DNA of 48,477 bases from Spirochaetales bacterium (GTDB lineage Bacteria > Spirochaetota > Spirochaetia > DSM-2461), in NCBI GenBank assembly GCA_028532905.1, contig JAQQAM010000070.1:1-48477 (forward strand), read 5' to 3'. The notes below the pieces were generated by a model, which made no database searches, was not told the origin of the DNA, and saw only the letters and a program-made list of their open reading frames with translations. Below are positions 4,615-48,477 of this stretch, piece after piece (the first letter of the stretch is position 1; each line of letters opens with the position of its first letter). A program made the translations under genes and the position numbers.

Positions 4615-6438
4615 TCAGGAATCGTGACTCATCTCGGTGAGCCAGAGTCTGAGTTCTTCACAGTCACTGCTCTGTGCCCATTTCTTTTCGAAATCTTCAC
4701 GGGTTATGATTCTGGCAAGGGCTGCCAGGCTGTGGAGGTGGTGTGACCTCTGTCCTTCGTTACCGATAAGGGCGAAAACAGCCTTCACAGCCGGTCTCTC
4801 CTCATTAAAGAAGATACCCTTTTCACTGCGGTACATCAGCATCTGCAGGGGCTTATCTCCTTTGATGACCATATGGGGAATGGCTGTAAAGGGTGTGAGG
4901 GCAGTGGAAAAACTCTTTTCCCTTTCCTCAAGACCCTGCAGAACCTCTGCCCGGTCATACCCCAGTGCGGCTGTATCGTCGGCGATTCGCTCAAACAGCT
5001 GCTGCGAGCTTATCTTTTCCGTAAGTTCGAAGTTCTTCATTTCGGAGAAAATCTTCCGAACGTTGGCGTTCAGGTCTCTGTGATGGATAATATCCATCAG
5101 CTCTTCTTCCAGCCCTTCTTCCTGCCACCTTTTATCAACCACATTTTTAAGGAGGTGGATCAGAGCGAAGTCATGAGAGGCTTTGTTCTTACCGTAAAAA
5201 AGGTAAATCAGGACACTGAAGGCCATGAAAATACCGGCGCCCGCCATGGCGCTCCAGCCCATATCGGCAATAAGAAAGATATAGATCAGAACAGAGATTA
5301 TCTGAAGGGCCGGATAAAAGGGCGCCTTGTAAAGAGGCTTGTAATTGGAAAGCCCGCTCTGTCTGAGTACCATGACCGCAATATTGCTCATGATGTAGGT
5401 CAGCATAATAACGGCAGAGGCTGATTTTACAAGAATATCGATGTTGAGCTGCAGAGCCAGGGCAATGACAACTCCTGTGAGGATGATGGAATAATAGGGT
5501 GCTCCCGACCTCCGGGATATTTTGCCCACCCATCCGGGAAGAAGGTTATCTCTGGAGAGGGCCAGGGGGTAGCGGGAGGCCGACAGCAGGCCGGCTATGG
5601 ATGTTGTGACAAATGCCAGAGCGGCGGCGACACTGATAATAATAAATCCGGGACGGCCCAGCACGATCTGGGCGGCATCGGCAACAGGGGTCATGGAACC
5701 GGTGAAGTTTTGGGCAGGAAGGAGTCCTGTTGTCACCAGAATGATACCACCGTACAGCAGGGTAACCACAACGATGGACAGGATTGTTCCCCTTTGTATG
5801 TTTTTCTGGGGATTCCTCACCTCTTCGGCTATGGTGGCCACCTGGAGAAGGCCTCCGAAAGAGACGAACACAAAGGCTGCTGTGGACAGAGATCCGTTTA
5901 TACCATTGCTGAAAAAGGGTGTAAAGTAATCTCTTCTGACTGCCGGAGCCCCGGCGATAATAAAGCCTGCCATTATAAGGAGAAGACCGGCCACAAGGAT
6001 GACTTCCAGTGTTACCGTCTCTTTCACTCCCTTGATATTGATCAGCACAAAAACTGCTGTGAGTACCAGAGCCGCAATGGACGAGGGTATGCCCGAAAGG
6101 GCAAAGATAATTTCTGAGAGACCGAAGATGGCAAAGGCCGTCTTCAGAGAGAGAGCCAGCCAGCTGAGGGTTCCTGTTACAGTTCCCGCCAGAGGACCGA
6201 AGGTCCTTCCGATAAAGAAATAGTCTCCTCCGGCACGGGGCATGGCTGTAGCCAGTTCAATGATGCTCAAGGCACCCACCATAGCCACGAATCCGGCCAG
6301 AATATAGGACAGAAACAGCGAGGGGCCTGTCATATTGAAGGCAATCCCGGGAAGTATGAAGATACCAGAGCTGATCATGGCTCCCGAGGCAATGCTGAAT
6401 ACATGTACCAGTTTTAAGTTCTGTTTTAAAGCAGGCAT
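4615..6438 (-). CDS. APC-superfamily amino-acid permease fused to a PTS EIIA (fructose/mannitol-type) domain
   Basis: The product has 607 residues. Residues 1-420 form a 12-helix APC transporter; the signature IASGAMISSGIFILPG at about 17-32 is the unwound substrate-binding helix 1. After a soluble linker (about 420-480), residues 480-600 match an EIIA-2 domain: ALTPFTAIPH with His522 in the phosphorylation position, then AVKAVFALIG and HHLHSLAALARII. The permease moves amino acids across the inner membrane. The EIIA part probably acts as a sensor or regulator because no sugar-PTS membrane subunit is encoded nearby. Start is supported by GGAGG 8 bases upstream. The gene lies 125 bases after hpt on the same strand and may be co-transcribed. 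Confidence 0.85.
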   Translation of the reverse strand: MPALKQNLKLVHVFSIASGAMISSGIFILPGIAFNMTGPSLFLSYILAGFVAMVGALSIIELATAMPRAGGDYFFIGRTFGPLAGTVTGTLSWLALSLKTAFAIFGLSEIIFALSGIPSSIAALVLTAVFVLINIKGVKETVTLEVILVAGLLLIMAGFIIAGAPAVRRDYFTPFFSNGINGSLSTAAFVFVSFGGLLQVATIAEEVRNPQKNIQRGTILSIVVVTLLYGGIILVTTGLLPAQNFTGSMTPVADAAQIVLGRPGFIIISVAAALAFVTTSIAGLLSASRYPLALSRDNLLPGWVGKISRRSGAPYYSIILTGVVIALALQLNIDILVKSASAVIMLTYIMSNIAVMVLRQSGLSNYKPLYKAPFYPALQIISVLIYIFLIADMGWSAMAGAGIFMAFSVLIYLFYGKNKASHDFALIHLLKNVVDKRWQEEGLEEELMDIIHHRDLNANVRKIFSEMKNFELTEKISSQQLFERIADDTAALGYDRAEVLQGLEEREKSFSTALTPFTAIPHMVIKGDKPLQMLMYRSEKGIFFNEERPAVKAVFALIGNEGQRSHHLHSLAALARIITREDFEKKWAQSSDCEELRLWLTEMSHDS

Positions 6439-6563
6439 TCTATAATCCTCCGTTTTCAGATGGCGAACATCATAAACGAGGATTTGCAGTTCAGCCAGTC
6501 TTTTTGGTTAAAATACAGGGAATCTTCAAGTTTTGAACACAAAGGAGCCTGTCCGGAAATAAA

Positions 6564-46572: not shown

Positions 46573-47334
46573 ATGACTCTGTATCATCTGATCTTTTTTC
46601 TGACAGCTGTTACGGCTGTATTCATCCAGTCTAAAAGCCGTACCCTTCAGGACCTGCCCGAAGAGCTCATGAACGAAGATCTGCACAACGAGCTGAGCCG
46701 CCTATTAAAGATCCGCCGTTTTATGAGTCCCTTTATTGCCGGTCTGACGGCTCTGCTGATCCTGATGATTACGGCCCGGCATCAACTGTGGAATGAGACC
46801 CTGCCCCGTTTCTTTGTTCCTGTCTGGGCGCTGGCATCCATAGGGGATATCTATATTGAAGGCGCCTATTCCATAGAAGACAAAAAAAAGCAGGAGCGCT
46901 TCTATCTGATCGGTATGATTCTTTTTATGGCCATGACCCTTCTATTAGGCATCGGGCTTATGGTCAATGCCGGTGCTGCCGCTTCGGGACGGATAGCCCG
47001 GATCATCTCCATCGGCCTTCCTGTTCTTCTGGGCATCGGCGCCTTTTTTACAATGAAACTGGATAAGGATACATTGGGACCCATGATTGTCTATGATGTT
47101 GCGGTTTCCGTACTGCTCTGCGGCGGATTGTTTGCCCTGTTTGCCGGACAGTATCAGATGGCCTATATCGGTATGGGATATTTTATTTCCGACTGGCTGG
47201 TGGGGACAAGGGATTTCGGGAAGTGGAAACCTGCCTTTCTGGACAGATGGATCCTGCTGTTTATTCTTCTGATCTACTATTCCATTATGATTCTGTCGGT
47301 GGACGGGGTGCTGAAGCTTGTCCCGGCTGTCTGA
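46573..47334 (+). CDS. YhhN-like integral membrane protein
   Basis: The product has 253 residues with about seven to eight helices. Two family-like signatures, IGDIYIEGAY and YFISDWLVGTRDF, match the duplicated acidic motifs of the YhhN/TMEM86 family, some members of which hydrolyse lysoplasmalogen. GGGAG lies 7 bases before the ATG. The substrate is not known here, and the N-terminal 60 residues are more divergent. Confidence 0.7.
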   Translation: MTLYHLIFFLTAVTAVFIQSKSRTLQDLPEELMNEDLHNELSRLLKIRRFMSPFIAGLTALLILMITARHQLWNETLPRFFVPVWALASIGDIYIEGAYSIEDKKKQERFYLIGMILFMAMTLLLGIGLMVNAGAAASGRIARIISIGLPVLLGIGAFFTMKLDKDTLGPMIVYDVAVSVLLCGGLFALFAGQYQMAYIGMGYFISDWLVGTRDFGKWKPAFLDRWILLFILLIYYSIMILSVDGVLKLVPAV

Positions 47335-47354: not shown

Positions 47355-48477
47355 CTAATCGGCGGGGCTGAAAATATCCTGTTCCACCCCATCCCAGAAG
47401 ACTCTAATATGTCCGGTTGATTCGGAAATGACTACAGAGGCGACTGGTGCCACCAGAGTTATCCCTAAAGCCGCCGCATGACGGGCTCCCAGACCGGGCT
47501 GCAGTTTTATCTGATGGGGAGGAACCGAGAGGTAGGTTCCTCCTGAATGGATATACCCGTTGTTGCCTATAATGTAGGCGCCGTCAATTTTTGAGAATTC
47601 CTTGATGGTTTCTGACAACCCTGAGTCCAGGATGCTCCTTTCATGCTCCTGCAGGCCTCCGAAGGGATTGATAATCAGCTGCTTGCAGTAGTCTTTTATC
47701 TGTTCATGGTCCCCCACCACAAATATGGTTCCCGCCGGCTTGCCTTCCCGCCCCTGACGGGAGAGTTCGGACGCCAGAGAGATGACCCGGCTGAGTATCT
47801 CCAGGTTTACATCATGGGGTATCCTGTAATTCAGAACACGGGCCTCATCGTACAGATCTTCCGGGATAGAGGATATGGAAATACTGTGGGCCATGGCTTC
47901 AAACTCGAAACCCGAAAGGGCGATAACCACTTCGCCTGTTTCCAGAACTTTCTCGGACCAGAGTTGTTTGAGTATCTCTTTCTGATCCTTGATAAATCCC
48001 TGTACGGGATAAATTTTGTTGAAATAGGGTCTCAGTATATTGGTTCTATCCAGGACTCTGGATTTACTGCTTACCAGTATGGTGTTCCTGTCCTTCAGCC
48101 GCTCCGCCATGGCCATGACCTGAATAAGGGCATTGGAAAACAGAATGATTCTGGCTGCTTTGATCCGGGAGGCCAGCTCTATTGTCTGCTCCAGAAGGGC
48201 ATCGGTGATCATCTCTTTTTCCCGGGAGTGGGTTTTCTCCTTCTGAGACTGGGCGGTCAGAAGAATCTGGGTCATTTCCAGGGCATTTTCCGCTTTGGAC
48301 AGTTTGTCCTGTGTTCCCGGAATCTGCATGATGGAAGCCAGCTCGGACAGAGTGGGAAGGTGCTCTTTCTCATTGCTTACCAGCAGGATGATTATGCTGA
48401 CCCGGTCACCTGCGGTATTCCAGGGAATCCCGTCATGAGAGAAACAGCAGAGGACCTGAGGCGAGACCGCTTCTTTT
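47355..48477 (-). CDS. Diadenylate cyclase (DisA_N domain) with N-terminal PTS EIIA-like segment, cut by the window edge
   Basis: The visible C-terminal part holds a diadenylate-cyclase domain (about 130 residues): DGAYIIGNNGYIHSGGTYL with the DGA motif, and GLGARHAAALGIT where canonical enzymes have RHR. Before it lies a pyruvate-kinase-like alpha/beta domain (RIILFSNALIQVMAMAERL, then VLETGEVVIALSGFE), the arrangement described for DacZ-type cyclases. The first ATG is at 48329, but the frame stays open to the window end. That upstream stretch reads like an EIIA-2 C-terminus (CFSHDGIPWNTAGD, VSIIILLVSN, HLPTLSELASIM). So the gene probably encodes EIIA-like + PK-like + cyclase. c-di-AMP controls potassium and turgor. 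Its stop lies 20 bases from the convergent YhhN-like gene. Confidence 0.85.
   Translation of the reverse strand, partial: KEAVSPQVLCCFSHDGIPWNTAGDRVSIIILLVSNEKEHLPTLSELASIMQIPGTQDKLSKAENALEMTQILLTAQSQKEKTHSREKEMITDALLEQTIELASRIKAARIILFSNALIQVMAMAERLKDRNTILVSSKSRVLDRTNILRPYFNKIYPVQGFIKDQKEILKQLWSEKVLETGEVVIALSGFEFEAMAHSISISSIPEDLYDEARVLNYRIPHDVNLEILSRVISLASELSRQGREGKPAGTIFVVGDHEQIKDYCKQLIINPFGGLQEHERSILDSGLSETIKEFSKIDGAYIIGNNGYIHSGGTYLSVPPHQIKLQPGLGARHAAALGITLVAPVASVVISESTGHIRVFWDGVEQDIFSPAD

Follow-up and report, generated by a model that had tools for sequence, protein, structure and literature searches.

A predicted diadenylate cyclase carrying a PTS EIIA domain in Spirochaetota

Among described diadenylate cyclases, the closest counterparts of the protein analysed here are the archaeal DacZ/CdaZ (DacY) enzymes, which are soluble and in which a domain resembling the pyruvate-kinase C-terminal domain (PK_C) is followed directly by a C-terminal DAC domain (PMC6741144). 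The spirochaete protein has the same arrangement but differs from these enzymes in being bacterial (Spirochaetota), in carrying an additional N-terminal EIIA domain and in falling short of the cut-off of the DacZ family NF041371. Control of a cyclic-dinucleotide enzyme by the phosphorylation state of the PTS, which we propose for the fusion, has been described for EIIA-Glc and PdeS of Vibrio cholerae; in that case, however, the two partners are separate proteins, the EIIA is of type 1, and the enzyme is a phosphodiesterase concerned with c-di-GMP (PMC8846402). Our literature search found no description of an EIIA-DAC fusion. The survey 'All DACs in a row' (Galperin 2023), reportedly a catalogue of DAC architectures that also introduced the sensor domains of DacZ_N type since adopted by Pfam, may list this one, in which case the architecture of the fusion, though not its function, may already have been catalogued.

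Architecture of a gene divided between two contigs

The window, i.e. the whole stretch of DNA that was analysed, is the entire contig C70 (48,477 bases) of a genome of 4.98 Mb in 296 contigs. On its minus strand, a frame of 373 aa (47355-48476) is open to the last base of the window without a stop, with its first ATG at 48329. The first-pass annotation had seen the same stop-free frame, and had suggested that the extra residues resemble the C-terminal part of an EIIA-2 domain. The missing 5' half was located in this genome by a search that used the N-terminal part of a same-genus homologue (G004). It lies on contig C146, whose last 20 bases match exactly the first 20 of the window's reverse complement (about 5e-10 such end overlaps are expected by chance). 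Once C146 and C70 are joined, the ORF comprises 437 aa, begins MIDLSRSMETT after a GGAG-type ribosome-binding sequence and includes GSGIAFPHSVIKEAVSPQ; its EIIA half is complete, His motif included. The codons of this active-site motif, GIAFPH (His61), are on C146, four codons past the window edge. No start or stop codon just past the edge removes the motif, the outcome that the first-pass annotation had named as a refutation.

The gene order resulting from the join agrees with that of the same-genus genomes G001 and G003, and with that of G004 on the upstream side. Indeed, the Rrf2-type regulator and DUF1858/solute-binding genes of C146 and the membrane-protein gene of C70 also flank the dac gene in G001 and G003. 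An assembly chimera was rejected because independent genomes carry the same uninterrupted fusion, including the single-contig assemblies G003, G168 and G403. The nearest named record is the MAG Spirochaeta sp. UBA5339 (76% identity across the whole query); its full-length homologue (L033) comprises 436 aa, with His60 as the counterpart of His61.

Table 1. Coordinates of the fusion gene, of its domains and active-site codons, and of EIIA-less relatives (window positions unless a contig or locus is named)
Feature	Position	Strand	Remarks
eiia-PK_C-dac gene, 3' part	47355..48477	-	residues 65-437 of the joined protein, plus stop
eiia-PK_C-dac gene, 5' part	C146 5768-5978		residues 1-70; very end of a contig of the same genome
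PTS EIIA type 2 domain, C-terminal half	48258..48464	-	PF00359 positions 71-142, 37 bits
Second EIIA histidine codon, His103 of the joined protein	48360..48362	-	alignment of fusions
Middle domain, pyruvate-kinase C-terminal (PK_C / DacZ_N-like) fold	47898..48203	-	fold match; PK_C 16.5 bits, sub-threshold
DAC (DisA_N) diadenylate cyclase domain, PF02457	47388..47759	-	66-67 bits vs cut-off 27
Catalytic Asp362 codon, DGA motif	47583..47585	-	alignment of fusions
Arg396-His397 codons, G-x-R-H motif	47478..47483	-	alignment of fusions
Ser415-Glu416 codons, VISES, equivalent of the (V/I)SEE motif	47421..47426	-	alignment of fusions
EIIA-less PK_C-like + DAC cyclase, other Spirochaetota	L115:5680-6609		matches Pfam DacZ_P over cut-off
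EIIA-less PK_C-like + DAC cyclase, other Spirochaetota	L116:5861-6754		
EIIA-less PK_C-like + DAC cyclase, other Spirochaetota	L117:4965-5843		

The EIIA domain occupies residues 1-136 of the joined protein. Residues 6-73 of the window protein match positions 72-142 of the PTS_EIIA_2 profile, its C-terminal half (33.8 bits, E 4e-8), with a score above the Pfam cut-off of 27, and a chance resemblance could therefore be rejected; the N-terminal half, encoded on C146, matches PF00359 positions 11-67 (29.5 bits). The first-pass annotation had staked its reading on an EIIA match in the N-terminal part of the protein, and the match is clear. The undivided EIIA of an intact homologue scores 71.2 bits, and all eight homologues of alignment A1 match the profile. 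The joined protein and its relatives also possess the active-site set Arg45, His61 (in G-I-A-x-P-H) and His103, so that the profile along the domain and the Arg/His/His motif both place the domain in EIIA type 2. When the intact homologue was modelled with AlphaFold2 (mean pLDDT 78.5; pTM 0.41, the relative domain placement being uncertain), the structures that best match the EIIA are those of EIIA-Ntr (1a6j, 3urr; E 4e-9 to 7e-9), while the C-terminus matches the CdaA/DacA/CdaM structures. The fold, the Arg/His/His active site and the GIAxPH motif are thus common to the fusion protein, PtsN (EIIA-Ntr) and the EIIA of FruA/MtlA. By contrast with the latter two, the spirochaete EIIA is joined to a cyclase and, according to NCBIfam, that of the intact homologue is near the FruA and PtsN types but below both cut-offs (39.7 vs 138.7 bits for the PtsN equivalog TIGR01419).

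At the opposite end of the protein, the PF02457 score (66.3 bits) and the DGA, RH and Ser motifs (Asp362, Arg396, His397 and Ser415) identify a DAC (DisA_N) domain. The best NCBIfam match of the window protein is DacZ (NF041371), at 94.6 bits for an equivalog cut-off of 430; since this family is named for haloarchaeal DacZ, the score is a sign of kinship, not of orthology. The cut-off of the CdaA family TIGR00159 is missed as well (28.2 vs 188.8 bits). The genome has a second DAC gene, a canonical CdaA-like one on C44, whose product has the DAC catalytic domain in common with the fused protein but is a separate open frame of ~276 aa and fits the DAC model far better (143 bits).

The middle domain was modelled separately (pLDDT 81.6, pTM 0.72), and the best 50 PDB matches of this model are all pyruvate kinases (about 120 aligned columns, best E 4e-6). 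The PK-like domain that the first-pass annotation associated with DacZ-type cyclases, ahead of DisA_N, is therefore recognised by its fold, whereas its sequence similarity is weak, the PK_C score being below the cut-off. The position of this fold, directly before the DAC domain, is that of the DacZ/CdaZ class, and the model is consistent with the published description of the DacY/CdaZ and DacZ cyclases as carrying a PK_C-like domain (PMC6741144). The Pfam search gave no match of the window protein to DacZ_P (PF21755), and the protein lies below the cut-offs of all three families DacZ_P, DacZ_A and DacZ_T (PF21755, PF21754, PF21756). The middle domain of several relatives, however, matches DacZ_P: five of the eight A1 members do so at E<=1, with a best E of 1.7e-15 over the middle domain. 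In the phylum sample, a single Spirochaetota protein (from G043) exceeds the DacZ_P cut-off, and it is devoid of EIIA. The best reading is that the EIIA-PK_C-DAC protein belongs with the DacZ/CdaZ-class cyclases, as a variant carrying an added EIIA.

Distribution, conservation and surroundings of the fusion

Uninterrupted three-part homologues are found in the same genus (G001, G003 and G004) and in at least 13 further family-level groups of Spirochaetota (two classes, one group lying outside the class); because the phylum alignment search scored the best four candidates per genome, these counts are lower bounds. As judged from these sequences, the gene is predicted to encode a c-di-AMP cyclase with an intact EIIA domain at the opposite end, a design conserved in many spirochaetes. 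None of the 18 fusions compared departs from the EIIA active-site His or from the DAC Asp, Arg, His and Ser; the second EIIA His is retained in 17 (Asn in G410) and the conserved EIIA Arg in 16 (Lys in G047 and G060). Outside the genus, by comparison, the DAC domains share a mean pairwise identity of 55%, against about 29% in EIIA and 20% in the middle domain. The chief argument for a role of phosphorylation is the preservation of the phosphotransfer residues in an otherwise divergent EIIA, and the residue pattern across the 18 fusions is as expected if phosphotransfer were under selection.

The middle and DAC domains occur without EIIA in the relatives G043, G081 and G145, so the core enzyme can do without EIIA; this domain would be either an input module added to an existing core or a domain lost in these three genomes. 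The same-genus homologue of G002 (L006:1309-2133) is broken by one in-frame TAA in the middle domain, reflecting a sequencing error or a decaying copy. The fusion of G288 (L118:5186-7018) is 610 aa long and has two long Pro/Ser/Ala-rich insertions, probably disordered, flanking the start of the middle domain.

Within the genus, the dac fusion gene stands alone, with a divergent neighbour on one side and a convergent one on the other; beyond the genus, its context is not conserved. The convergent gene in G000, G001 and G003 (46573-47334 in the window, plus strand) encodes a 253-aa multi-spanning membrane protein with no Pfam match. In G403, the EIIA-DAC gene and the end of an SbcC-like gene overlap by 4 bases (L102:2071-5115 and 5112-6446), with an SbcD-like gene ahead, and in G168 (L101) an SbcCD-like pair adjoins the EIIA-DAC gene in convergent orientation; a link between the cyclase and DNA-break processing is possible. 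The window holds another case of an EIIA joined to a non-PTS protein: the 607-aa APC-type amino acid permease encoded at 4615-6438 (minus strand) has a C-terminal EIIA_2 domain (68.9 bits) with an A-I-P-H motif, and a similar open frame is found in G005 (L017). Three further readings of the fusion were rejected: a phage origin (no match in phages), a plasmid origin (the plasmid matches were separate DacZ or EIIA-bearing PtsP proteins only) and a role in anti-phage defence (no PADLOC match).

Possible role of the EIIA domain

The genome contains four EI-type (PEP-utilisers_N) matches and about a dozen EIIA_2 domains. Of its two HPr genes, one belongs to an hprK-HPr-hpf-rpoN cluster and the other adjoins an EI gene and an operon for a sugar EII (the remaining genes of these clusters were named from their sequences, without profile search). 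The phosphorylatable His, HPr and EI that the first-pass annotation had suggested looking for were thus all found, and the PTS of this organism could, in principle, supply phosphate to the EIIA of the fusion. Of the 16 other fusion-bearing genomes tested, 15 also have HPr, as does G003; the exception, G060, is 81% complete. With respect to c-di-AMP, 7TMR-HDED, a domain of PgpH-type c-di-AMP phosphodiesterases, matches at two contig positions, and no c-di-AMP riboswitch (RF00379) was found in the genome.

We propose that the protein is probably a soluble DacZ/CdaZ-class cyclase, consisting of an N-terminal PtsN/FruA-like EIIA, a PK_C-like middle domain and a C-terminal DAC domain, whose output is controlled by PTS phosphorylation. 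HPr~P would phosphorylate His61 of EIIA, and the phosphorylation state of EIIA would alter the way in which EIIA and the PK_C-like domain allow the DAC domains to pair face to face. The c-di-AMP output would as a result track the cell's PEP/sugar (PTS) state, and the PK_C-like domain might provide a second input by binding a metabolite. The sign of the effect (phosphorylated form on or off) is not readable from the sequence. A more specific version, namely a direct PTS-to-c-di-AMP link in which EIIA-PK_C-DAC integrates PTS phosphorylation and a glycolytic metabolite so that c-di-AMP, and perhaps K+/osmotic balance, is set by the carbon state, is put forward tentatively, as possible rather than probable.

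EIIA could instead be mainly an interaction or scaffold module, the unphosphorylated form of which would bind a partner (a transporter or a kinase) and place the cyclase, DAC catalysis itself not being regulated. Regulatory EIIA proteins such as the EIIA-Ntr of PTS-Ntr do work by binding partners, and the unequal divergence of the three domains speaks for such a role; the phosphotransfer His is, however, strictly kept despite the low identity of the EIIA domains, and we consider this explanation rather unlikely. That the main signal is a metabolite ligand of the PK_C-like domain, with EIIA accessory or vestigial, would fit the presence of this domain both in archaeal DacZ/CdaZ (PMC6741144) and in the EIIA-less spirochaete relatives, but seems quite improbable given that conservation is lowest in the middle domain while the EIIA active-site residues are nearly invariant. 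It is more improbable still, and by far, that EIIA is a working transport part passing phosphate to EIIB, the fusion having no signalling meaning: although its active-site residues are intact and the genome has about a dozen EIIA_2 domains, no PTS EIIB or EIIC gene was recognised beside the dac fusion gene in the neighbourhoods inspected, which makes a regulatory role likelier than transport.

To our knowledge, few of the inputs that determine c-di-AMP levels have been established. The fusion of a cyclase to a phosphorylatable PTS domain provides a defined candidate input, the PEP/sugar state, which is testable with purified proteins. Both PTS-Ntr (PMC9239096, PMC3665714) and c-di-AMP (PMC6488665) have been linked to potassium homeostasis; if the proposed control by PTS phosphorylation is true, the fusion would join these two systems.
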